In this document: one piece after another, positions 7,679 to 52,742 of the stretch
Layout of the letters: every line of letters begins with the position of its first letter
Numbering within the stretch: position 1 is the first letter of the stretch
Source of the DNA: Asticcacaulis machinosus
GTDB taxonomy: Bacteria > Pseudomonadota > Alphaproteobacteria > Caulobacterales > Caulobacteraceae
Assembly: GCF_028550435.1 (NCBI RefSeq)
Contig: NZ_JAQQKV010000002.1
Coordinates: 248,001 to 312,000 of the forward strand
Length of the DNA stretch: 64,000 nt
Direction of reading: 5' to 3'
Position numbers and translations under genes: made by a program
Notes under the pieces: model-generated
The model's database searches: none
Told to the model about the DNA's origin: nothing
What the model saw: only the letters and a program-made list of their open reading frames with translations

Positions 7679-8770
7679 CTAGACGGTAAAAAGATGCTGT
7701 GGCCCAATATCCTTTACGGTCGCGCACCCGCTCAAGGCCATAACCACTTCCAGCTCCTCGTGCAGAGTGCGCAGAGCATGGGCTACCCCTAAGGCTCCGG
7801 CGGTAGCCAGAGCGTGCATAATGGGCCGCCCGATCATAACCGCCGCAGCCCCAAGTGCCAGAGCCTTAAATACATCGCTGCCGCGCCGGATACCGCCATC
7901 GATAAGCACCGGCCCGCGCCCTTGGGCGGCGGCGACTATGGCGGGCAGAACCTCAATCGTTGCGGGCAGTCCGTCCAGTATACGCCCGCCATGATTGGAT
8001 ATAACCACACCCGTCGCACCGGCCTCAAATGCCCTCACCGCATCGTTAGGCGTCAGTATGCCCTTAAGCATAACTGGCAGTCGGGTTTGGCCCACCAGCC
8101 ATTCCATGTCGTCCCAGGTCGGTGCCTGTGCCATCAAACCATCAAAGACCACACTCTGGTTCGCCGTAAGGGGCTGTAAGGGCGCTGACGGCGGCGTGAC
8201 ATTAACTGCCCGCACGTCGTCCGGCAGCCTAAACCCTGCCCGCTGCTCACGATTACGCAAACCAGCCAGAGGCGCATCAACGGTAACCATTACCCCTGCA
8301 AACCCAAGGGCTTCAGCGCGCCGCACCATCTCAAGCACCGCCCCGCGATCCGGTTGCAGATAGAGTTGCAGCCACAAGGGCCCGGTCGCCTTGGCCGCAA
8401 TCTCTTCAAACGATACAGAGGCCAGTGAGCTTATGACCATGCCCGCCCCGATCGCACCTGCCCCCAGAGCGGTGGCAGCTTCACCTTCCGGATGAAAGAG
8501 CCGGTGATAGGCCATTGGCGCCACAAATATCGGATGCGGTAAGGTTCGCCCCAGCAGTTCCAACCGGGTATGGCCGCCCGCCACATTGCCCAGTACATGG
8601 CCCGCCAGTTTGATGCGCTGATAGGCCTGTGCATTATCGGCAAGGGTCAGTTCATCGCCCGCACCGCTCATCAGATAGACCCAGGCATTGTCATCCAGCC
8701 GCGCGCGCGCATAGCGCTCATAGTCGCTCAAGCTGACAATATCGCGAGGGATTGAGGTCAGTATAGTCAC
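7679..8770 (-). CDS. FMN-dependent alpha-hydroxy-acid oxidase/dehydrogenase
   Basis: The 363-residue protein belongs to the family of L-lactate dehydrogenase (LldD), lactate oxidase and glycolate oxidase, which oxidise L-2-hydroxyacids with FMN. Visible marks are the N-terminal SGAGDELTLADN segment, VAPMAYHRLFHPEGE, the LQLY strand, the FMN-binding lysine in MLKGI, the catalytic histidine in ISNHGGR, and the phosphate loop LIDGGIRRGSDVFKALALGA. There is no membrane-binding loop obvious enough to assign it to LldD, so a soluble oxidase acting on lactate, glycolate or another hydroxyacid is possible. It starts 10 bp after piuC, implying co-transcription in an iron-linked operon, which is an unusual partner. 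Confidence 0.88.
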   Translation of the reverse strand: MTILTSIPRDIVSLSDYERYARARLDDNAWVYLMSGAGDELTLADNAQAYQRIKLAGHVLGNVAGGHTRLELLGRTLPHPIFVAPMAYHRLFHPEGEAATALGAGAIGAGMVISSLASVSFEEIAAKATGPLWLQLYLQPDRGAVLEMVRRAEALGFAGVMVTVDAPLAGLRNREQRAGFRLPDDVRAVNVTPPSAPLQPLTANQSVVFDGLMAQAPTWDDMEWLVGQTRLPVMLKGILTPNDAVRAFEAGATGVVISNHGGRILDGLPATIEVLPAIVAAAQGRGPVLIDGGIRRGSDVFKALALGAAAVMIGRPIMHALATAGALGVAHALRTLHEELEVVMALSGCATVKDIGPQHLFTV

Positions 8771-8780
8771 AGGCCAGCCC

Positions 8781-9461
8781 TCATAAGTCGGCCCATTGCC
8801 GCAGCAAATTATGATAGTGGGCGGTCAGGGTCACCACTTCAGGACTGTCGCCCACCTTTTGGCGCAGCTTAAGAATGGTCATATCCAGATCGAACAGCAT
8901 CTGGCGGCGGCTATCATCCCTGACCATACTCTGCACCCACAGAAATGACGCCAGCCGTACCCCGCGGGTTACCGGCTCAACCCTGTGAAGAGATGTCGAT
9001 GGATAAAGGATCGCATCACCAGCGCTGAGTTTGACCTCATGGGCGCCGTAAGTGTCTTCGATAATCAGTTCACCGCCATCGTAGTCTTCGGGATCATTCA
9101 GAAACACGGTGCAGGACACATCGGTCCGCACACTGATGTTTTTCAACGGGTCGTAATGTATGGCGCTGTCGACATGGTTGCCGTAGTGACCACCACCTTC
9201 ATAGGCATTAAAGCGCGGCGTCAGAATGATATGCGGTAAAGCCGCCGACACAAACAACGGATGGGCTTTGAGCGCCGTGGTGACCATATCGGCCATAATC
9301 TGAGACTGGGGCGCATCGGCGGGTAGTTGGCGGTTCTGCTTGACCTGACTGGCCTGCGCCCCCGCGGTCGCCGCCCCGTCCTGCCACGATGCCTCAGTCA
9401 GCGCACGGCGAATATCGCCAAGCTGATCAGGGCTTAACACGTCAGGGATATGCAGCATCAT
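8781..9461 (-). CDS. piuC: PiuC/YbiX-type PKHD hydroxylase (Fe(II)/2-oxoglutarate dioxygenase)
   Basis: PKHD-type hydroxylases of the PiuC/YbiX group sit next to catecholate siderophore receptors and are iron-regulated; their substrate is unsettled. The 226-residue protein is the length of YbiX. Iron ligands are H96 and D98 (NHVDSA) and H159 (SLHRVEP), with R169 as the probable 2-oxoglutarate anchor. The open frame begins at 9500, but the family start [10 protein letters not shown] at 9461 has AGGAGG at proper spacing. The gene follows the siderophore receptor on the same strand across a terminator (9500-9531), so it is either read through or has its own promoter. Confidence 0.93.
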
Positions 9462-9499
9462 GATGGTCGCCTCCTGATACCGTTTTACAGGTTTTCCCA

Positions 9500-9531
9500 A
9501 TAAAAACAGCCCCCGTCATCACAACGGGGGC
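9500..9531 (-). terminator. Terminator after the siderophore receptor gene
   Basis: GCCCCCGT (9509-9516) pairs perfectly with ACGGGGGC (9524-9531) across a 7-base loop. On the minus strand it is followed by TGTTTTTATTG. It lies 26 bp past the stop of the receptor gene and 48 bp before the piuC start, so it may reduce expression of piuC relative to the receptor. Confidence 0.8.
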
Positions 9532-9556: not shown

Positions 9557-11857
9557 TTAAAACTTGTAGCTCAGGCTCAAAGTCGCCGCGCGGGGCTGGC
9601 CCATGGTCAGGCGTGCACCGGAGTTGTTAAGCGTAGAAATATAGTCTTCGTCGAACAAATTATAGACATTCAGACGCAGAGCTACATCGCGGTTGAAATC
9701 ATAAGCTGCCATAGCATCCACTACCCAGTAGGCCGGGATTTCCGGCACGTTTGACGTGGCAATTACAGCCGCAGGATCAACGACACGCTTTTGGTCAGAC
9801 GTATAACGCGCGCCGCCGCCAATGGTCAGCTTAGGCAGAACCTTATAGGTCGTCCATACCGTGCCAGTCAGATCCGGGGACCACCGGGCAGCCGCCCCAT
9901 TGGCGTTATTGCCGGTCGAACCATCGGTGATTTCGGTTTCCATGGTCGCAATGCCGGCCATGATGCTCCATTTGTCATTGATCTTGCCAACAGCGCTCAG
10001 CTCCAGGCCTTCGACAATACGTTTCCCAAACTGCACCACACGCACGGCAGACGACGGATCGGAATCGATAGCGATTTCGTTCTCATGCTCAGTGCGATAG
10101 TAGGCCGCCGTCAGCGACAGGTGCTCATTCAGCAAATCCCACTTCGTGCCGAGTTCGTAGTTGAAGGTCTCCTGCGGATCCATGTTTGGGTTAGCCGTAG
10201 AGGTAGCGCTTTCGCTAAGCGTAAAGTTCGCGCCACCCGGAGGGGTGACCGAATTGGCGATCGACGCATAGATCGAGCCGTTCGGCAGAGGCTTATAGAC
10301 CGCACCGACGTTCCAGCTAAATACCGTATCATCACCTTCAATGTGCGCGGCCAGCTTGGTTCCTACGGGAATGGTTTGAACGGCAGGTGCGGTAACTCGC
10401 CCCTGAACGGTTATGATGTCGGTTTCAGTCGAGTAGGTATCTGAACGGAAGCCGGCATTGATCAACCACTGGTCATTGAGTTTAATGGTATCGAACGCAT
10501 AAAGCGAAAGCGTTGTCGTGCTACCCTCAGTCATAGCGCCTGTGCGTAAGAGAGCGGGCAAAACAACATTGGCGTTCGGATTATAAAGATTGGCAGCGGG
10601 AATGACGGGAACATCAGCCACAGGCGTCGTGGCTAGAGACGTCGCCAGAGTCAGAGTTTTCTGACGCTCATACATAACTTCGGCACCGGCTGAGAGATCG
10701 TGCTCAAGCCCGCCCAAGGTGAAGGACGTGACGATGCTGGTCTGGTTAGCCAGGATTTCATTTTCCTGATCCACGCCCTGACGGCTGCGCGCCAGAGTCC
10801 ATGTAGACGGATTGGTCAGGACAGCCCCGGAGTTTGCTGGATTGATACCGTTAATCCCCGTAAGGACACGATCCATAGAGGTTTTACCGTAACGTGCCGT
10901 GTTGGTGACGAAAGTGTTTTCGTTCAGGTCATGCTCAAACTTGACCGTAAGCATGTTGGCTTCGGTCTTTTCGAAATCATTGACCGAACCGTAGAAGTTT
11001 TCGCGATCAACCTTGGCACCGGCCCGGATCGTTGCATCGGCATTATAGAAGCCTTCCAGACCGATGCTGGGGATGCCGCCATCAGGGACATTGTCCTGCT
11101 TCACGTGCTGGGCAAAAGCATAAAGGCGGGTGCGGGTGCCCAGACCAAAGGCGATGGATGGCGCGATGCCGTAACCAGAATTGTTGACTTCATCACGGCC
11201 TGGAACGTCGTTGTCCTGAGAGAAAGCGTTCAGACGGAAAGCGATAGTGTCACCCAGCTTGTGGTTGACATCGACCGCGCCGCGCAGGCCACCTTCGGAG
11301 GTGAGGTTGGCCTGAAGCGAGGACGCGTCCTGCAAGGTCGGCAGTTTGGACACCAGATTGATGTAGCCCGAAGACGACCCCCGGCCACCATCTGAACCGG
11401 ACGGCCCCTTGGCGACTTCGATCTGTTCGATGTTAAAGGTGTCACGGGTTACGGCCCCCAGATCGCGGATACCATCAAGGAACAGCGAAGACTGCGTCGA
11501 GAAGCCGCGCATCTGGAACGTATCGCCCGACGACGTATTGCCGTTTTCACCCAGTTGCATGGTGATGCCCGGCGTATTGCGCAGAGCTTCCATCAGGGTC
11601 GTGGCGCCCTGTTCCTGAATGATGTTCTTGGTGATGACGGTCACGGTCTTGGGCGTATCGACCAGGGCTTGCGTGAACTTAGGTGACGTCAGTTCAGACT
11701 TATACTTATCGACCGTTGCCGTAACCGTGACTTCTTTCAGGGTCTTTTCTTCCGCCGCCTGAGCGTGAGCGATGAGGGGCATGGCCGGAATAGCGACGGC
11801 GGCGACAGTGGCCAGGTAGCGATTGACGCTGTGTTTACGGCTGCGAATTTTGGTCAT
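9557..11857 (-). CDS. TonB-dependent catecholate siderophore receptor (Fiu-like)
   Basis: This 766-residue outer-membrane receptor imports ferric siderophores, most likely catecholates, using TonB energy. It has a signal peptide (cleavage near AHAQA, about residue 35), a TonB-box-like segment (KEVTVTATVD), a plug domain with DTPKTVTVITKNIIQEQG, ALRNTPGITM, MRGFSTQSSLFLDGIRD and IEVAKGPSGSDGGRGSSSGYINLVSK, then a 22-strand barrel ending in the outer-membrane terminal signature LSLSYKF. The plug sequence, the adjacent piuC and the Fur-like box 59 bp upstream all point to the Fiu/PiuA group. Ligand identity cannot be set from sequence. Confidence 0.93.
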   Translation of the reverse strand: MTKIRSRKHSVNRYLATVAAVAIPAMPLIAHAQAAEEKTLKEVTVTATVDKYKSELTSPKFTQALVDTPKTVTVITKNIIQEQGATTLMEALRNTPGITMQLGENGNTSSGDTFQMRGFSTQSSLFLDGIRDLGAVTRDTFNIEQIEVAKGPSGSDGGRGSSSGYINLVSKLPTLQDASSLQANLTSEGGLRGAVDVNHKLGDTIAFRLNAFSQDNDVPGRDEVNNSGYGIAPSIAFGLGTRTRLYAFAQHVKQDNVPDGGIPSIGLEGFYNADATIRAGAKVDRENFYGSVNDFEKTEANMLTVKFEHDLNENTFVTNTARYGKTSMDRVLTGINGINPANSGAVLTNPSTWTLARSRQGVDQENEILANQTSIVTSFTLGGLEHDLSAGAEVMYERQKTLTLATSLATTPVADVPVIPAANLYNPNANVVLPALLRTGAMTEGSTTTLSLYAFDTIKLNDQWLINAGFRSDTYSTETDIITVQGRVTAPAVQTIPVGTKLAAHIEGDDTVFSWNVGAVYKPLPNGSIYASIANSVTPPGGANFTLSESATSTANPNMDPQETFNYELGTKWDLLNEHLSLTAAYYRTEHENEIAIDSDPSSAVRVVQFGKRIVEGLELSAVGKINDKWSIMAGIATMETEITDGSTGNNANGAAARWSPDLTGTVWTTYKVLPKLTIGGGARYTSDQKRVVDPAAVIATSNVPEIPAYWVVDAMAAYDFNRDVALRLNVYNLFDEDYISTLNNSGARLTMGQPRAATLSLSYKF

Positions 11858-12116: not shown

Positions 12117-13010
12117 CTACTGCGGCATGACCTCAAGGGTGACCGAATAGGACATGCGCAGCGGAGCCGCCGGGCCGCGCTGGCCACCGCCCATGCCCCC
12201 GGCCTGACCGCCAGCCGCAGGGCCCGCAGCAGGTGCATCGTCATCATCTTCTTCAGGACGCGGCGGGAAGCTGGTGTTGACCCAGTAAGCCCCGGCCAGT
12301 TCCCACTTGATCGAAAACTCACCATTGGCATCGGTTTTCAGCACCTGATCCTTCAGCGCGCCGCGATAGCGCACGCCACCGGGAACGATCTTGATCGACA
12401 GGCCAGACGTTGGCTTGCCGTCAACCAGCACGCGGAATTTGGCGGCCTCCCCCAGCACCAGATCGGTCGTCGGTTGCAGGGGCAGAATCTCAAGGCCCTT
12501 ACCAATAGCCTTGATGTCGGTCGGCGCGCCTGATGTCACAAAGGTTTCAACGCGGCCAAAGTTGCGCGATACGGTCAAGCCTTCGGCATTTGCCGGTACT
12601 TCCTTGGCGAAGGTTTCTTCGGTGCCGCGGAAGTTGACGTCCTGACCGTCCTTTTTGTAGCGCGCCATGACCGAATTATTGACCGAGGCGATGCGGTAGG
12701 TGCCGGGCTTCAAAAGCTTGACATCAAAGGTCGCGCGCAGCTTGCCCGTAGAGACATTCTCAGCCTCAACCGCCGCCCCATCAGGGCCGGTGATTTGCAG
12801 GCCAGTCAGGCGCATGGCGTTATGGTCGGCATAGAACAGGCCGTTCGAGGACGCCGCATCAACCGTCACATAGGTCGGACGCTGCGGATTGGTCGAGACC
12901 TCAACCTGCGTGGCCGATGGCAGCAGCCACTGGCTGTGAGCGACGGCGCTGACCGGGCCGAGTGCGGCCAGAAGTGCCAGCGAACTGATAAGACCTTTGG
13001 TGAATTTCAT
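12117..13010 (-). CDS. Exported DUF4198-domain protein
   Basis: The 297-residue protein starts with a clear signal peptide (MKFTKGLISSLALLAALG, cleavage near AVAHS) and continues as a beta-rich DUF4198 domain, a periplasmic family often found beside TonB systems and metal uptake genes. The segment HSQWLLPSATQ right after the signal peptide is typical; the mature N-terminus would begin with histidine or serine near a metal-binding position. A low-complexity acidic and glycine-rich stretch (PEEDDDDAPAAGPAAGG) precedes the last strand. It follows tonB by 23 bp and should be co-transcribed behind the same Fur-like box. A role in iron handling in the periplasm is inference from context. Confidence 0.82.
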   Translation of the reverse strand: MKFTKGLISSLALLAALGPVSAVAHSQWLLPSATQVEVSTNPQRPTYVTVDAASSNGLFYADHNAMRLTGLQITGPDGAAVEAENVSTGKLRATFDVKLLKPGTYRIASVNNSVMARYKKDGQDVNFRGTEETFAKEVPANAEGLTVSRNFGRVETFVTSGAPTDIKAIGKGLEILPLQPTTDLVLGEAAKFRVLVDGKPTSGLSIKIVPGGVRYRGALKDQVLKTDANGEFSIKWELAGAYWVNTSFPPRPEEDDDDAPAAGPAAGGQAGGMGGGQRGPAAPLRMSYSVTLEVMPQ

Positions 13011-13033: not shown

Positions 13034-13777
13034 CTAAGATTTCAGATTAAAGCGAATGGGTACATTGACCCATGACTCGACGGCCTGCCCGTTGCGACGG
13101 GCGGGGGTAAACTTCCAGGTCTTTACGGCCTGTCTGGCGGCACCATCCAGACGCATAGAGCCGCTGGAGGTCTTGATCTGCACCTCACCTACGCCACCAT
13201 CGGCGCGCACCATAAGCCTCAGCCAGACGACGCCCTGCTCGCGCATCTGCACGGACTTGGGCGGATAGGGCGGGGCCGGATTACGTGATAAGGCCTGATC
13301 GACATCGACCTCGACAAATCGCTCTGCAGCCGGCGCGGGCGCGGGGGATGGCGGGGCAGCCACCGGTGCGGCGGCCACCGTCTTAGGGGCCTCCACCGCC
13401 GCCATGACCAGAGGGGCGACATCCGATACCACAGGGGTTTCAACGGTGCGGGCCTTAATGGGCGATGTACTGACCGGCTGGGGTGTGGGCGGCGTCGGCG
13501 CGGGTTTGGGCTTATCCGGCTGGATCTGCGGCAGGTACATCTCGACCAGCATCGCCTCATCAAGGGCTGCCTGAGCGGGTGTCGCGACAAAGCGCATGGT
13601 CACAAAATAAAGCCCGATACCGGCATGAACGGCGATAGATAAGGCTACGGCAATGGCTATTGGTGATACCCGCGTGGTCTTAGCCGCCGACGGCTTAAGA
13701 GCACGTCCCGTTTCAGGTTTCTTATTCGGCCTAACATCTGGCTTAATATTTGGCGCGAACGCCGCCTGCACACCCAT
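13034..13777 (-). CDS. tonB: TonB family energy transducer
   Basis: TonB couples the inner-membrane proton gradient to outer-membrane receptors. The product (247 residues from the ATG at 13777) has a cytoplasmic N-terminus, one membrane anchor at about 38-59 (SPIAIAVALSIAVHAGIGLY), a proline-rich periplasmic spacer (KPKPAPTPPTPQP) and a TonB_C domain with YPPKSVQMREQGVVWLRL and the AVKTWKFTPARRNG motif. The open frame could start at a TTG at 13825, but that codon lies inside a Fur-box-like palindrome, so I chose the internal ATG. ExbB/ExbD are not next to it. It heads an operon with the DUF4198 gene. Confidence 0.9.
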   Translation of the reverse strand: MGVQAAFAPNIKPDVRPNKKPETGRALKPSAAKTTRVSPIAIAVALSIAVHAGIGLYFVTMRFVATPAQAALDEAMLVEMYLPQIQPDKPKPAPTPPTPQPVSTSPIKARTVETPVVSDVAPLVMAAVEAPKTVAAAPVAAPPSPAPAPAAERFVEVDVDQALSRNPAPPYPPKSVQMREQGVVWLRLMVRADGGVGEVQIKTSSGSMRLDGAARQAVKTWKFTPARRNGQAVESWVNVPIRFNLKS

Positions 13778-13820
13778 GCCCACTACCCGCAATGATATCC
13801 GGCAGGCTGGGTAGCACCTA

Positions 13821-13835
13821 TGCAAATAATTCGCA
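13821..13835 (-). promoter_or_regulatory. Fur-box-like palindrome upstream of tonB
   Basis: TGCAAATAATTCGCA is a 7-1-7 imperfect palindrome with six of seven paired positions matching, in the Fur-box format. It lies 44 bp upstream of the chosen tonB start and shares ATTCGCA with the site before the siderophore receptor. Confidence 0.6.
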
Positions 13836-29513: not shown

Positions 29514-29540
29514 GCATCCTTTCAAAGGTTGAAACAATGC
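29514..29540 (-). promoter_or_regulatory. Hairpin sequestering the sugE/gdx ribosome binding site
   Basis: On the minus strand, GCAT then TTTCAA pairs with TTGAAA then ATGC (a 2-base internal loop between the two helices), with CCT at the tip. The ribosome site AAAGGA is in the 3' arm. The GC at the 5' foot is shared with the P2 strand of the guanidine-III aptamer, so aptamer folding and this hairpin should compete, which would give translation ON with guanidine. Confidence 0.6.
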
Positions 29541-29607
29541 GTCGTCTTGTCTTTCAGTATTTGGGTACTGCGCAGCAAGGCTACCGGGTACGGCGCGTCT
29601 CGTCCGG
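29539..29607 (-). promoter_or_regulatory. Guanidine-III (ykkC-III) riboswitch upstream of sugE/gdx
   Basis: On the minus strand the 5' part reads CCGGACGAG, then ACGCGCCGTACCCGGT, and the 3' part GACAAGACGACGC. As I remember the Thermobifida fusca guanidine-III aptamer, these differ from it at only two adjacent bases in the 5' part and one in the 3' part (giving one C-A mismatch in P2). The two parts are joined by a 31-base insert with its own CAGTA/TACTG hairpin; this connecting loop is variable in the class. The pseudoknot-forming elements are intact. The downstream gene is a guanidinium exporter, the expected target. Confidence 0.92.
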
Positions 29608-29614
29608 TGGGGGT

Positions 29615-29643
29615 TATATAACCACACGCCGCCTATGAGTAAA
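29615..29643 (-). promoter_or_regulatory. Probable sigma-70 promoter for the riboswitch-sugE transcript
   Basis: On the minus strand TTTACT (29643-29638) and TATATA (29620-29615) are spaced by 17 bases. Transcription would begin near 29607, exactly at the first base of the riboswitch. The -10 element lies in the palindrome GGTTATATAACC (29612-29623). Confidence 0.6.
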
Positions 29644-29718
29644 GACCGCGACTTGCCCTTAAGGCAGTCTGGTCAGACCGCATTGGGTAGGATAAGCCTT
29701 GTCCAAAAGGAGTTCCCC

Positions 29719-30054
29719 ATGCACCCCTACCTTACGCTAATAGGCGCGATTATTGCCGAAGTGATCGCGACCTCGGCGCTTCAGGCCTCCCAGCAATTTA
29801 CCAAACCGCTCTACAGCACCATAGTGTGCATAGGTTATGGTGCGGCTTTTTACCTGATGTCGCTGACCTTGAAGTCACTGCCGGTCGGCATTGTCTATGC
29901 GGTCTGGAGCGGATTGGGGATCGTGCTGATATCCCTCGTGGGCTGGCTGGCGTTCAAGCAAAAACTCGACCCGCCCGCCGTTATCGGCATCGCGCTGATC
30001 ATCTCAGGCGTTGTGGTCATGCAGGTCTTTTCCAAGTCGGCGCACCACGCATGA
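29719..30054 (+). CDS. EmrE/QacE-type SMR efflux transporter
   Basis: The 111-residue protein has four helices and the EmrE-type signatures AEVIATSAL with the proton- and drug-binding glutamate E14, YAVWSGLGIVLISLVGWLAF and a C-terminal helix LIISGVVVMQVFSKS. EmrE-like SMR proteins expel quaternary ammonium and other cationic compounds. The frame is open from 29635, but the ATG at 29719 with AAAAGGAG before it is the right start. It is divergent from sugE/gdx and overlaps the next gene by four bases. Whether guanidine controls it is unclear, since the riboswitch is on the other strand. Confidence 0.92.
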   Translation: MHPYLTLIGAIIAEVIATSALQASQQFTKPLYSTIVCIGYGAAFYLMSLTLKSLPVGIVYAVWSGLGIVLISLVGWLAFKQKLDPPAVIGIALIISGVVVMQVFSKSAHHA

Positions 30055-32802: not shown

Positions 32803-32911
32803 GGTAACCTCTGTGCTGTGAGCGTAAGGTTCTGGCCATGCGTCTGCGCGCCCGGCGCTTGCGGGTGAAAGACGCACCGCCTGAGCCCTCCGCTCCGGGT
32901 GAATATGAGGT

Positions 32912-33095
32912 CGCTGGCAGGTCTCCTGGCTCACGGGTCAGGGCTTAAGTCCGCCTTCTCAGGGGATAACCCCCAATGGCTTTCGGATATCGGCTCACCG
33001 TTCACAGTTGCGGGGGCAGCGCCGGAGTTGAACCGGCTTCCCTCTTAGCCGCGCCGGTTTGGCAACCGGCGCAGAACCACGACAGGCACAGCTAT
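32912..33095 (-). promoter_or_regulatory. Cobalamin (AdoCbl/B12) riboswitch upstream of metE
   Basis: Read on the minus strand, the leader has the hallmark parts in order: GCCTGTCGTGGTTC near the 5' end, AGAGGGAAGCCGG, the B12 box GCGCTGCCCCCGCAACTGT, and the closing strand AGCCAGGAGACCTGCC. The 3' closing strand pairs with the 5' region as in the Rfam cobalamin class. Between it and the metE GTG, TGCGTCT and AGACGCA can form a long hairpin (about 32837-32875), a candidate expression platform. Repression of MetE by B12 through such leaders is well established in other bacteria. Confidence 0.95.
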
Positions 33096-33123
33096 AGAGT
33101 TCACAAATTCAAGAGTCAATAAA

Positions 33124-33192: not shown

Positions 33193-34557
33193 TCAGTAAA
33201 GATCGCGACGATAGCGTCCGTCAGCCAGAGCCTGAATTACCCAGGCATCGCCCATGATCGTACGCAGGGCCTTATCGACCCCCTGCCCCATCGACAGCCC
33301 GCCGCAGACCATGACCGCGCCATTGTCCGCCAGATAGGCGCGGATACGATCGGGTGCTGCGGCGATGGCATCCTGTACATAGATGCGTTTACCACTATCG
33401 GGCCGCGAAAAACATAGGGTCAGGTCGCTTAACTCACCGGCCTGCACACGCGCCGTCAAGGCCTTACACAGGGCGCCATCGCGGATCGGGTGGCGCTCAC
33501 CATAAACGACCCAGTTGGCCTTACGGCCCGACAACACCCGCGCATCGATATGGGCATTGAGCCCCGCCAGACCCGAGCCCGCCGCGATCAGCAGCAGCGG
33601 CCCGTCACCCTCAGGGGTATGGAAATTCTTATGGGATTTTGTGCGTAACAGAACCGTCTGATCCACACCCAGATCATGGGTCAACAGCCCCGATCCCAGA
33701 CCGCGTGAACCATCATCCTTGATCACTTCGCGCACATAAAGCTCGACCACACCCTGTGTCGGCAAAGACGCCAGCGAATAGTCGCGGACATGGCCATCCA
33801 CCGTCATGATCTCGGCCAGATCACCCGCCTGCCAGTCAGGCAATATACCGCTCTGCGGCTCAAGCACCACGCGGTAAAGCTTTGAGGCGTCACTATCGGG
33901 GTTAAGGCATTCTCGCGCTTTCAGTTGCCACGCACCGTAAGCCGCCTTCGGATCAAACGCCTCCGATTTGGCCCCCAGATCCGACAGGTTTTCATACCAC
34001 CTGTTCAGCGCCGCCGGATCAAGATCATCAACCTCGATCACCTCAAAATAGGGTTTGGCCCCACTGGCTCGCAGCCAGTCATGCAGCCTGCGACCGAACG
34101 CACAAAAATCGGCGTAAGACTTATCGCCTAGCGCCAGCACCGCATAGTCAAGGTGACTAAGAACCGCGCCATCGCTCATGACTTTGGCCTCGAACCCCAG
34201 CACACTGTCCGGCGCATCGCCATCACCGGTCGTCGACGCCACACACAGGACGTGTTGAGCGCTCTCCAGATCACTTAGCTTCAGGTCGGCCATATCGACA
34301 ATACGCGCTGACTGCCCGCCATCGACCAACCGCTTCAAGGTCGCCGTCGCAATCTCTTCGGCTTGTCCGGTCTGGGAGGCGTAAACCACCAGCCACGGCG
34401 TCGCCCCCGCTGCCGCCTCACGCTTAAGCCGCGCTTTTTTCTGCTCGCCCGCCCAGATCACCGCGCACATGATCAGATAGAGTGCGGTTGAGCCCAGCAC
34501 CCAGGCCCATGTGACCGGATCGCCCTGCACCTCGGCTATGATCTGCGACAGTCCCAT
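33193..34557 (-). CDS. Membrane-anchored diflavin reductase (flavodoxin plus FAD/NADPH domains)
   Basis: The 454-residue protein has an N-terminal membrane helix (about 17-36), a flavodoxin domain (about 54-195) whose FMN phosphate loop is YASQTGQAEEIA, an FAD-binding barrel with RDYSLAS, and an NADPH domain with GSGLAGLNAHI, ending in an aromatic residue (RRDLY) as in ferredoxin-NADP reductases. It is like the flavoprotein subunit of sulfite reductase without its extra connecting domain, so it should pass electrons from NADPH to a membrane partner. It is the last gene of a PepSY-DUF2271-ApbE operon with gaps of 3-5 bp in this part. I infer that the PepSY protein is that partner. Confidence 0.9.
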   Translation of the reverse strand: MGLSQIIAEVQGDPVTWAWVLGSTALYLIMCAVIWAGEQKKARLKREAAAGATPWLVVYASQTGQAEEIATATLKRLVDGGQSARIVDMADLKLSDLESAQHVLCVASTTGDGDAPDSVLGFEAKVMSDGAVLSHLDYAVLALGDKSYADFCAFGRRLHDWLRASGAKPYFEVIEVDDLDPAALNRWYENLSDLGAKSEAFDPKAAYGAWQLKARECLNPDSDASKLYRVVLEPQSGILPDWQAGDLAEIMTVDGHVRDYSLASLPTQGVVELYVREVIKDDGSRGLGSGLLTHDLGVDQTVLLRTKSHKNFHTPEGDGPLLLIAAGSGLAGLNAHIDARVLSGRKANWVVYGERHPIRDGALCKALTARVQAGELSDLTLCFSRPDSGKRIYVQDAIAAAPDRIRAYLADNGAVMVCGGLSMGQGVDKALRTIMGDAWVIQALADGRYRRDLY

Positions 34558-34560
34558 ATC

Positions 34561-35577
34561 TTACTCATCAGTCCCATATGCCGCCATTAGCGGGCTTAAG
34601 CGTTCAATTATATGCTCACCGTCACGCACCATGATCAGAGCGGCGACGCCGTGCTGCGCACAAAAGGCCATCGCCCGATCAGCCCCCATCACCATCAGGG
34701 CGGTGGCCAGCGCATCGGCGCGCCAGCAGTCTTTGTCCATCACCACCGCCCCCGCCATGCGGTTATCAAGCGGACAACCCGTGATCGGATCAATGGTGTG
34801 GGCATAGGATTTATCATCATGCACAAAATAACGCCGCCAGTCGCCGGACACCGCCACCGCATGATCACATAAGGCTATCAGATTACGCCCGACTCCGGCA
34901 CCCGGCACCCGGTCAATTTCCACCCACCACGGCTGACCGTCCGGCCGCGCCCCGATTCCTTTCAGTTCACCGCCGATCTCAACCAGAGCCGATATGACGC
35001 CAAACTCATTACGCAACAGATCGACCACACAATCGACGGCATAGCCCTTGGCGATGGCATTGAGATCAAGCCGCAGACTTTCGGGATGGATCAATCCATC
35101 GTCCTGCACCACCAGATCACGCCAGTCGGAGGCCCGCGCCTTCAATCCGTCCCGCACCGGCTCAGGCGGCAGGCCGGTATCAACTACGCGCGATCCAAAC
35201 CCCCAGGTCTCAACCGCCTCCAGCAGACAGGGGTCAAATGCCCCGTCGGTCAGTTGTGCGACCTCGACCGCCTTAGCCACAACATCAAGCAACATAGGCG
35301 GCAAGGTTACATGCTGCCACGAGCCCGCAGCGTTGAACCGGCACAGATCGGACTGGGGCTTATAGGGCGACATCTGATGGTCGATCTCGCTAAGGCAAGC
35401 CTCAATCCGCGTTTGAGCGTCAGCTACATCGCCCAGCCCCAGCACCGCCTTGACCTGCCATGACGTGCCAAACGCTTGCCCGCTCAGGGTCGTTATGACC
35501 GCATCGGCAGGGGGCTTTTGCGGCACATCGACGGGAGGGATAAAGATGCGCACATCCTCAGGCGCGGCGGCAAACAT
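34561..35577 (-). CDS. apbE: ApbE FAD:protein FMN transferase
   Basis: ApbE attaches FMN from FAD covalently to a threonine or serine of target proteins. The 338-residue protein has FGTSW near the start (the family's M/FGT motif), the ALVEIGGELKGIGARPDG region, the YAHTIDPITGCPLDNRMAGAV loop and the metal-binding DALATALMVMG. Most ApbE proteins have an export signal or lipobox; this one has none visible, and the 5-bp gap to the upstream gene leaves no space for one. That sits oddly with the exported DUF2271 neighbour as a target. It is in the middle of a tight operon with PepSY, DUF2271 and diflavin reductase genes. Confidence 0.92.
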   Translation of the reverse strand: MFAAAPEDVRIFIPPVDVPQKPPADAVITTLSGQAFGTSWQVKAVLGLGDVADAQTRIEACLSEIDHQMSPYKPQSDLCRFNAAGSWQHVTLPPMLLDVVAKAVEVAQLTDGAFDPCLLEAVETWGFGSRVVDTGLPPEPVRDGLKARASDWRDLVVQDDGLIHPESLRLDLNAIAKGYAVDCVVDLLRNEFGVISALVEIGGELKGIGARPDGQPWWVEIDRVPGAGVGRNLIALCDHAVAVSGDWRRYFVHDDKSYAHTIDPITGCPLDNRMAGAVVMDKDCWRADALATALMVMGADRAMAFCAQHGVAALIMVRDGEHIIERLSPLMAAYGTDE

Positions 35578-35582
35578 GGCTC

Positions 35583-36113
35583 TTACGGCTTATAGGTGTA
35601 GCTGATGGCCCCCAGCTCGCTGGCCCCCTTACCCGAACCGTTCGACGCCTTGGTCAGGTTGAGCGGCACGCGCACGATTTCAAGACCACCGGCTTCGCGC
35701 GAAGCTTCGATGACAAGGTTATACTGACCCGGCTTGATGCCTTTCAGGCCATTGGCTTGCGTGAAATTGACCGTCTGACGGCCCGGTGCCTTGGTGGCCG
35801 AAGCCAGACCGTCCGGCATGGCGGTCAAGGAGCGCCCGCTCTTGCGCCACCAGGCGCGCATGTCCTTAAGCCACTTCTTGCCGCCCTCGTCCTTCATCTT
35901 GACGTCGTACCAGACAAACAGATTTCCGGCATGGGTGCCATCGGCGGTTTCAATCCAGCCGGCCACATAGGGCTTATGATATTCAGCTACGCTCAAGCGC
36001 GGCACTTCGACGGTGACGGCAAGCTCAGCGGCAGATGCGCCCGCCGTGGCCCCCATACCCCCAGCCACGGCAAGCGCTGCCCCCCAACCCGAAACCTGAG
36101 TAACTTTAAACAT
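35583..36113 (-). CDS. Exported DUF2271 protein, candidate flavinylated electron carrier
   Basis: The 176-residue protein starts with a signal peptide (MFKVTQVSGWGAALAVAGG, cleavage near ASAAE) followed by a single DUF2271 domain, a predicted periplasmic beta-rich fold. Features include VAGWIETADGTHAGNLFVWYD, a WLKDMRAWWRKSGR helix and a C-terminal SGKGASELGAIS segment. The KGAS at residues 162-165 recalls the (S/T)GA(S/T) motif used by ApbE to attach FMN, with S165 as the acceptor candidate; this is inference. The start is the ATG at 36113 (GAGGG upstream) rather than the TTG at 36119. The gap to apbE is 5 bp. Confidence 0.82.
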   Translation of the reverse strand: MFKVTQVSGWGAALAVAGGMGATAGASAAELAVTVEVPRLSVAEYHKPYVAGWIETADGTHAGNLFVWYDVKMKDEGGKKWLKDMRAWWRKSGRSLTAMPDGLASATKAPGRQTVNFTQANGLKGIKPGQYNLVIEASREAGGLEIVRVPLNLTKASNGSGKGASELGAISYTYKP

Positions 36114-36199
36114 AATCAAACCCTCATCAAACAGCCCGCGTCCCGCGAAAGCCGTCGGTTAATGAAAACTCCGGTAAATTCATTACCCGAGCGTTTTTT

Positions 36200-36248
36200 G
36201 ACGCGCATTTATATCCGAAAACCGCTGCACACTTTTCGGAATGCGCTC
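36200..36248 (+). repeat. Dispersed palindromic repeat, copy A
   Basis: A 49-bp unit with nested arms: GCGCAT...ATGCGC outside and TCCGAAAA...TTTTCGGA inside. It recurs at 52696-52742 in the same orientation and at 41082-41130 inverted. This copy abuts the stop codon of the PepSY gene and could act as a 3' stem-loop between PepSY and DUF2271 in the operon. Confidence 0.85.
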
Positions 36249-36865
36249 TAGTGAACAAAGACCATAAACAGGATGAACGGGGCCAGAACCCCAAACCCGA
36301 TCAATGGCCAGGTGATGGCGCGGGACTTGGCATAGACCCACAAAAGCCCGAACCCGGTCAGGCAGAAGATCACGCAAAACAGCGCGATAATATCGATAAA
36401 CCACGACCAGGCCGGGCCGGAATTACGGCCTTTATGCAGATCGTTCAGAATGGCGATGACGCCGCGATCGGTGCGCTCATAGGTCATAAGGCCGGTGTCG
36501 CGCTCGATCGACACCCAGGAATCGACGCCGGGTTTAGGCATGGGAATATAGATTTCGCCCTCGCTGACCTCAGCCTCATAACCTTCGACGTCAATGCCGG
36601 AGGCTTCGAGGATCATGTGAACCGCAGGCACCGGCAGATCGGCCTTATCCTGCGCGCCATCAAGCGCACCCAACTGGGCGGCGGTCAGGGTGACTTCCTT
36701 AGTGTCGATCTTGGGCTTGGATTCGATGTCTGTGGCGTGATTGAGCGTGTAGCCGGTCACCGAAAACAGAAACATCGCCATCAGACAGACTGCCGAGCTG
36801 ATCCAGTGCCATTGACGCAACTGATTGCGCCAGAAGGACGCGCCTAAGCCAGAAAAAGACGACAT
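36248..36865 (-). CDS. PepSY-associated membrane protein, probable heme-binding electron conduit
   Basis: The 205-residue protein has three membrane helices (about 21-40, 154-177, 184-204) around a periplasmic PepSY-like domain (about 50-140). It has RQWHWISSAVCL, LFSVTGYTLNHA and NDLHKGRNSGPAWSWFIDI, the PepSY_TM signatures. Histidines H20, H43 and H144 lie at the membrane ends and could hold heme b, as proposed for this family; I cannot prove heme. It is the first gene of the operon with DUF2271, apbE and the diflavin reductase, and a Fur-like box lies 29 bp upstream of its ATG. The gap of 134 bp to DUF2271 contains repeat copy A. Confidence 0.88.
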   Translation of the reverse strand: MSSFSGLGASFWRNQLRQWHWISSAVCLMAMFLFSVTGYTLNHATDIESKPKIDTKEVTLTAAQLGALDGAQDKADLPVPAVHMILEASGIDVEGYEAEVSEGEIYIPMPKPGVDSWVSIERDTGLMTYERTDRGVIAILNDLHKGRNSGPAWSWFIDIIALFCVIFCLTGFGLLWVYAKSRAITWPLIGFGVLAPFILFMVFVH

Positions 36866-36893
36866 TGACGAAAAGTAACCCGCAAACCCGAAT

Positions 36894-36908
36894 TGAGAAT
36901 TATTCTTA
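36894..36908 (-). promoter_or_regulatory. Fur-box-like site upstream of the PepSY-DUF2271-apbE-reductase operon
   Basis: TGAGAATTATTCTTA has the 7-1-7 Fur format, with six of seven half-site pairs matching, and fits TGATAATnATTATCA at 11 of 14 positions. It lies 29 bp before the PepSY start codon, a repressing position. It suggests that the operon responds to iron. Confidence 0.7.
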
Positions 36909-52695: not shown

Positions 52696-52742
52696 ACGCG
52701 CATTTTATCCGAAAACCGCTTCACACTTTTCGGAATGCGCTC
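52696..52742 (+). repeat. Dispersed palindromic repeat, copy C
   Basis: The same unit as 36200-36248, with ACGCGCATTTTATCCGAAAA and CACTTTTCGGAATGCGCTC. It lies between the methyltransferase-like gene and the DUF3597 gene and ends 14 bp before the latter's ATG, overlapping the leader. Confidence 0.85.

Follow-up and report, generated by a model that had tools for sequence, protein, structure and literature searches.

A PepSY, DUF2271, ApbE and reductase operon of Asticcacaulis machinosus with a Fur-like box, in which the ApbE has no recognisable export signal

The window analysed here is a stretch of 64,000 nucleotides from Asticcacaulis machinosus (contig NZ_JAQQKV010000002.1, positions 248,001 to 312,000). 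It contains, on its minus strand, an operon of four genes coding for a PepSY_TM_like_2 protein, a DUF2271 protein, an ApbE and a reductase. A Fur-like box stands upstream of these genes. The PepSY protein has invariant histidines, the DUF2271 protein has a signal peptide and an invariant Thr107, the ApbE has no recognisable signal peptide, and in congeners the operon is joined to iron uptake genes in one cluster. We propose, with about an even chance of being right, that the operon encodes an electron line whose reductase takes electrons from reduced nicotinamide adenine dinucleotide phosphate (NADPH) and hands them to the PepSY protein, which passes them to a flavin on the DUF2271 protein, that Thr107 is loaded with this flavin before export by a cytoplasmic ApbE, and that the line would reduce Fe(III), freeing the iron of imported carriers. 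Judged by gene content, the operon belongs to the PepSY-like flavinylation systems described by Meheust et al. (eLife 2021, PMC8238504). Its features are as follows.

36894..36908, plus strand: Fur-like box TGAGAATTATTCTTA, upstream of the operon
36248..36865, minus strand: PepSY_TM_like_2 membrane protein, 205 residues, predicted heme electron carrier with conserved His 20, 43, 144 and 205 (PF16357, E 1.7e-68)
36161..36247 (outer bounds approximate), minus strand: hairpin repeat element between PepSY and DUF2271
35583..36113, minus strand: DUF2271 protein, 176 residues, ATG start, signal peptide, predicted carrier of flavin mononucleotide (FMN) (PF10029, E 5.6e-41)
35793..35795, minus strand: Thr107 codon, predicted flavinylation site in DGLASATKAPG
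35619..35621, minus strand: Ser165 codon, earlier proposed flavin site, unconserved
34561..35577, minus strand: ApbE FMN transferase, 338 residues, with catalytic-type residues and without a visible signal peptide (PF02424, E 5.9e-71)
33193..34557, minus strand: membrane-anchored flavodoxin and FNR-type reductase, 454 residues, predicted entry point of NADPH (Flavodoxin_1, E 2.1e-25)

The domains found by profile search are those named in a preliminary description of this DNA, which had also called the four genes tightly packed. This is correct for the last three genes, with gaps of 5 and 3 nucleotides, but not for the step from PepSY to DUF2271, where the gap is 134 nucleotides because the hairpin repeat GAGCGCATTCCGAAAAGTGTGNAGCGGTTTTCGG sits there, abutting the PepSY stop codon. 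Four close relatives have no repeat at that place, and it is therefore probably a recent insertion inside the operon; a second copy is found in the window at 52709-52742 on the minus strand. The closest named loci include A. endophyticus, whose DUF2271 protein is 98% identical. As in other PepSY-like flavinylation systems, the PepSY gene (PF16357) lies within five genes of apbE and DUF2271, and at least one flavinylation gene, that of DUF2271, codes for a signal peptide, as judged by the N-terminus and a family-wide scan rather than by SignalP. A promoter and terminator scan was uninformative.

The DUF2271 protein starts with MFKVTQVSGWGAALAVAGGMGATAGASA-AEL, which reads directly as a Sec-type signal peptide and agrees with the export previously claimed for it. 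Its AlphaFold model is mostly beta (predicted local distance difference test, pLDDT, 94). The flavin had been assigned to Ser165 in the fragment KGAS, a site that was rejected: this column contains S or T in only 81 of 160 relatives, the rest having A, H, G and others, while the column of Thr107 contains T in 158 and S in 2 of the 160. The relatives counted are non-duplicate; 18 duplicate loci, together with the 3.4-kb loci L008-L037, did not enter the counts of signals, of motifs in the cluster proteins and of DUF2271 columns and gene orders. Around Thr107, Asp is found at position -6 in 144/160 and Ser or Thr at -3 in 152/160, the commonest form being D-G-[VIL]-[ST]-[GS]-A-T-[RK]-x-P-G. These surroundings are an instance of the motif type D-x-x-[S/T]-G-A-[S/T] described for ApbE in passages of PMC12052999, and a passage of PMC8238504 reports that changing the threonine of the predicted site in A. 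ursilacus DUF2271 abolished flavinylation. Thr107 is likely the better candidate for the flavin site. It corresponds to residue 79 of the AlphaFold model, outside helix and strand and ahead of the strand 83-90.

The strict form of the motif is not present in the window protein, which reads DGLASAT with the acceptor Thr and the Asp kept; this degenerate form occurs in 5 of 97 ApbE-linked loci. By its conserved acceptor the window DUF2271 protein would work like an ApbE substrate. In the other protein families of the cluster the motif D-x-x-[ST]-[GS]-A-[ST] was absent (PepSY 0/120, DUF4198 0/112, reductase 0/96, receptor 0/39; the scan covered these four families). An earlier view that DUF2271 proteins of the window class have no flavin motif at all had been drawn from the C-terminal KGxxELG stretch, and was dropped after the conserved DGxSGAT stretch was found. 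The C-terminal G-x-x-E-L-G (residues 163-168, 35610-35627) is itself conserved, with G163, E166 and G168 at 97% or more, while the positions between vary freely.

It is important to consider on which side of the membrane the ApbE works. The preliminary description had tacitly placed it outside the cytoplasm. The window ApbE, which is the sole ApbE match in the genome, shows no export signal: in its start, MFAAAPEDVRIFIPPVDVPQKPP, there is no hydrophobic signal stretch in the 36 open residues ahead of the first conserved motif, and it has neither the signal peptide nor the lipobox of a canonical exported ApbE. The residues of catalytic type expected of an FMN transferase are retained in the family (H260 and T292 in 104/104, D288 in 100/104). 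The idea that the window protein has no room for a signal was dropped, as 32 residues precede the fold and the ApbE of locus L196 fits a signal in about 25.

The same feature is seen across the operons. Among 121 stand-alone operon ApbEs (123 at first, minus L228 and L232, which have weak DUF2271 hits only), an export-like N-terminus was called in only 3 at the strict and 7 at the loose threshold of a hydrophobic-stretch scan, and only the ApbE of L196 (MKFPILSILLLLAGC) is convincingly exported. With the same scan, DUF4198 proteins were called in 131/134 cases (strict), DUF2271 proteins in 85/153 (strict) and 151/153 (loose), and ApbEs encoded elsewhere in the genomes were export-like in 20/20. 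None of the best 120 of 3104 homologues of the window ApbE exceeded the strict threshold. An in-frame stop lies no more than 45 residues ahead of the ApbE fold in 50 of the 121 loci, which excludes there a far-upstream signal hidden by a mis-chosen start; a short signal would fit, as in L196, yet is not seen. The scan takes the profile position as its anchor. An intermediate version had no ApbE anchor in 47 proteins and called 2 of 94 ApbEs. The first version called 127/136 DUF4198, 0/41 PiuC and 0/11 LldD proteins, and was replaced since its own DUF2271 control had failed (6/128 called).

On a quick tree of 91 chosen rows, 55 of them from operons, obtained by a short search, the operon ApbEs cluster together (54 plus L196; Shimodaira-Hasegawa-like approximate likelihood ratio test, SH-aLRT, 92, unstarred). 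In a phylum sample of 42 genomes, 24 have apbE in the operon, and in 20 of these it is the sole ApbE match of the genome. All 18 genomes whose operon has no apbE contain an ApbE elsewhere, and the best-scoring one is export-like in 18/18. To judge from these sequences, none of the sampled genomes leaves its DUF2271 line without an ApbE, but the side of the membrane on which that ApbE is found differs among them. Most signal-less operon ApbEs (101/121 by pattern; window 35540-35577) also have a short N-terminal motif like R-x-[LV]-[VI]-P followed by prolines, which is possibly a docking motif.

Loading before export is what we infer from four points: the sole ApbE has no signal, the flavin motif is absent from the four other cluster families, a motif of 7 residues suffices for modification by ApbE (described in PMC12052999), and a truncated ApbE flavinylates a signal-peptide-truncated DUF2271 protein in E. 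coli (described in PMC8238504). In the proposed mechanism the ApbE would attach the flavin to Thr107 of the DUF2271 precursor in the cytoplasm, ahead of Sec export. Electrons of NADPH would enter through the membrane-anchored flavodoxin reductase and pass to the PepSY protein, the predicted holder of heme, and from there to the flavin that the DUF2271 protein carries after export. Once reduced, this protein would in turn reduce Fe(III), which a Fiu-like receptor would bring in, probably bound to a catecholate. The heme and FMN content of the proteins, the direction of the electrons and the substrate of the line are predictions.

The residues of the PepSY protein are in keeping with such a role. 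His20, His43 and His144, which the preliminary description had pointed out at the membrane ends, are invariant in 35/35 relatives, and the last residue of the chain, His205, is kept in 34/35; each of the four reaches a conservation of 97% or more among 99 ApbE-linked loci. The AlphaFold model (pLDDT 92) has long helices at residues 3-42, 150-179 and 185-204, with one domain between the first two. Fold searches with the DUF2271 and PepSY models gave no significant hit, and FoxB was not among the 50 matches listed per search. The reductase has a hydrophobic stretch at its N-terminus and a flavodoxin domain, and its match to the FNR NAD-binding domain is weak (19.9 bits, cut-off 22). It scores 156.5 of the 668 bits set for the CysJ NCBIfam equivalog, and is not a sulfite reductase flavoprotein by that measure. 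Being so far below this cut-off, the protein is fairly described by its earlier label, NADPH diflavin reductase, while the cofactors in that label are not proven. Two further, larger PepSY_TM proteins are encoded in the genome, L002 (G000:C1:408815) and L003 (G000:C1:1279167); the first comes directly after what reads, without a domain search, like the end of a TonB-dependent receptor.

The site at 36894-36908, earlier described as Fur-box-like, was scored against TGANAATNATTNTCA, which we take to be the Fur consensus. The window has 6 sites with no more than 2 mismatches, and this one, with 1 mismatch, matches best; shuffles average 1.85 such sites, and 1 of 100 reaches 6. Three weaker Fur-like sites (11916, 11982 and 13821) stand at the starts of a receptor gene and a TonB gene. 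The box of the operon is also present in the four close relatives, and a box in this position is common in the family. Upstream of PepSY, 55 of 137 loci have 10 or more of the 12 bases matching, against 0.75 expected, and 42 have 11 or more, against 0.15, the expectations being from simple letter shuffles. The corresponding counts (at least 10 of 12) are 3/146 for DUF2271, 5/137 for DUF4198, 1/122 for ApbE and 0/108 for the reductase. With a Fur-like box at its promoter the operon has the mark of a Fur regulon member, and it would be expected to respond to iron. According to passages of PMC3751524, the Caulobacter counterparts CC_3059-3063 are up 12- to 51-fold under iron limitation or in a fur mutant, and passages of PMC12004947 describe a lower fitness of CCNA_03155-03159 transposon mutants in ethylenediaminetetraacetic acid (EDTA).

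The receptor and TonB genes just mentioned belong to a second iron block of the window, on the minus strand.

13034..13825, minus strand: TonB protein (PF03544, E 2.1e-22)
12117..13010, minus strand: DUF4198 protein, signal peptide; encoded after DUF2271 within the operon in most relatives
9557..11857, minus strand: TonB-dependent receptor, closest solved relative the Fiu catecholate receptor (6bpm, E 5.6e-157)
8781..9500, minus strand: PiuC/CciO-like 2-oxoglutarate-Fe(II) hydroxylase (PF18331, PF13640)
7679..8770, minus strand: FMN-dependent alpha-hydroxy-acid dehydrogenase, LldD-like (PF01070, E 4e-123), found in the joined cluster of congeners

The receptor, PiuC, LldD, PepSY, DUF2271, ApbE and reductase genes form, in this order, one joined cluster in 8/18 congeneric loci (L039, L040, L042-L047), the cluster of L044 ending with its contig inside ApbE. 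In the window they are divided between two blocks, with about 19 kb between these. The link between the operon and the second block, drawn earlier from the window, is supported by these joined clusters, which suggest that the operon serves the Fiu-like receptor. Outside the genus, named loci of Herminiimonas, Rhodoferax, Hyphomicrobium and Acidovorax have PiuC and receptor genes at the flanks of the operon. Several Asticcacaulis genomes split the same genes between two loci in various ways (L082, L083, L086, L087, L041, L048, L050, L055), with ApbE and the reductase apart from DUF2271, DUF4198, the receptor and PiuC.

Several observations weigh against a flavin loaded before export and used for Fe(III). 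The window motif is ASAT rather than the strict [S/T]GA[S/T], and just 61 of 121 operon-linked DUF2271 proteins have the strict form. Tat-like DUF2271 signals number only 3/151, which means that the flavin-bearing chain would have to pass SecYEG. Export was called with a simple hydrophobicity scan instead of SignalP, and the earlier version with the failed DUF2271 control called 14 of 120 operon ApbEs. Locus L196 has an ApbE that is clearly a lipoprotein, and among the 120 best-listed homologues of that protein 91 pass the strict threshold; for the window ApbE, a loose lipobox pattern is found in 9 of 120 best-listed homologues, but without a hydrophobic stretch in any of the 9. The A. ursilacus ApbE of the published DUF2271 test is described as signal-peptide-truncated (PMC8238504); this indicates, as does L196, that exported operon-linked ApbEs exist outside the window class. 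As far as the N-termini tell, the side of ApbE is not fixed across the family. Finally, FeoB_C, Nramp and ZIP, the three Fe(II) importer families searched for, gave no match in the window genome, which leaves no candidate among them for the last step of the model. FeoB was rejected as the Fe(II) route: FeoB_C, present in 19/25 genomes, is not found in the window genome, the four close relatives and one more congener.

Three other explanations have to be compared with loading in the cytoplasm. The ApbE could reach the periplasm without a recognisable signal, or be exported together with a partner, and flavinylate DUF2271 there according to the canonical scheme. Most characterised ApbEs do work outside the cytoplasm, to follow the passages of PMC12052999, and besides the lipoprotein of L196 the ApbE-DUF2271 fusion proteins look exported: three of the five exceed the strict threshold and the other two (one at 1.76, one unscored) visibly start with signal peptides. 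However, the strict threshold gives no export call for 118 of the 121 operon ApbEs, nor for any of the window protein's 120 best-listed homologues, and the in-frame stops leave 50 of the loci with space for a short signal only, which is not seen. We consider a periplasmic operon ApbE quite unlikely. It is also rather unlikely that the ApbE modifies some cytoplasmic protein while DUF2271 has no covalent flavin and is a substrate- or iron-binding adaptor of a PepSY reductase. The lack of the strict motif in the window and in about half of the class would fit this, and passages of PMC12052999 give a precedent in Klebsiella, where a cytoplasmic ApbE has a cytoplasmic target. But the motif was absent from the four other cluster families (the rest of the genome was not scanned), the acceptor column of DUF2271 is T or S without exception, and a separate apbE accompanies DUF2271 in 121 of 160 loci.

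The remaining explanation dispenses with the flavin. The PepSY heme might reduce ferric complexes directly, as is proposed for FoxB, with DUF2271 and DUF4198 in iron handling. FoxB and HiuB are both proposed to reduce ferrisiderophores through hemes in passages of PMC13038864 and PMC12424826, whereas here most loci have DUF2271 alongside a PepSY of this type, and usually apbE too, a co-occurrence that is one-sided because the loci were picked by DUF2271. This explanation appears improbable to us. Returning to loading in the cytoplasm, its extension to the family is more tentative than the reading of the single operon: the chance falls somewhat short of even that there is a widespread class of Fur-controlled operons in which a signal-less ApbE flavinylates in the cytoplasm and the flavin-bearing chain passes through Sec with no need of periplasmic flavin adenine dinucleotide (FAD), the same substrate family being served from either side in different lineages.

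Comparison with known systems shows what is shared. The PepSY-like flavinylation systems of PMC8238504 have PepSY PF16357, DUF2271 and ApbE, often with DUF4198, and the passages of that paper propose iron reduction and give Fur-repressed examples; a missing export signal on the operon ApbE is not mentioned in them. The window differs in its flavin motif, ASAT, and in having DUF4198 in another block. In Caulobacter crescentus (PMC3751524, PMC12004947) the genes CC_3059-3063 / CCNA_03155-03159 are described as of the same types as the window operon, but DUF4198 is inside the operon, the receptor pair cciT-cciO is a separate locus, and feoAB is present. Mutants in cciT-cciO and in the operon are both less fit in EDTA, and passages of PMC12004947 call the inner-membrane route unknown. 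The ApbE of the Klebsiella fumarate reductase likewise has no signal peptide, but its target is given in PMC12052999 as a soluble cytoplasmic enzyme, while the presumed target in the window is exported. FoxB and HiuB are PepSY membrane proteins whose conserved histidines hold, or are predicted to hold, heme (PMC13038864, PMC12424826). The description of FoxB in PMC13038864 gives it two PepSY domains, two bis-His hemes and a donor called unknown. The window PepSY protein, by contrast, is built of one domain and three helices, and shares its operon with a reductase gene. The conserved membrane histidines of the window protein resemble those of FoxB in kind, and its heme is predicted.

The overall idea of the preliminary description, an iron-controlled path from NADPH through a reductase, PepSY heme and DUF2271-bound FMN to Fe(III), agrees with the published family models and with the gene neighbourhood; its flavin site and the side given to ApbE do not stand. 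Its statement that the system has not been described biochemically may hold for the operon as a whole, but DUF2271 flavinylation, the FoxB heme path and the Caulobacter Fur and iron phenotype are in print. By the N-termini of its members, a signal-less ApbE with an exported substrate is a class-wide feature, and the listings and passages of the literature searched contain no report of a signal-less or pre-export ApbE in PepSY/DUF2271 systems.

Two riboswitch matches lie beyond the operon. A cobalamin riboswitch (32899-33096, minus strand, 125 bits) is located just past the reductase gene and directly upstream of metE, and is ordinary B12 control of metE. A guanidine-III riboswitch match at 29536-29630 on the minus strand adjoins a small multidrug resistance gene at 29635-30054 on the plus strand.

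The PepSY protein of this operon is paired with a reductase of its own operon, a likely electron donor, while the donor of FoxB is called unknown. The operon also prompts one to ask by which route Fe(II) is taken up in a clade where FeoB is not found. If loading precedes export, covalent flavin proteins would need no periplasmic supply of FAD, and the Sec machinery must pass a flavin-bearing chain.

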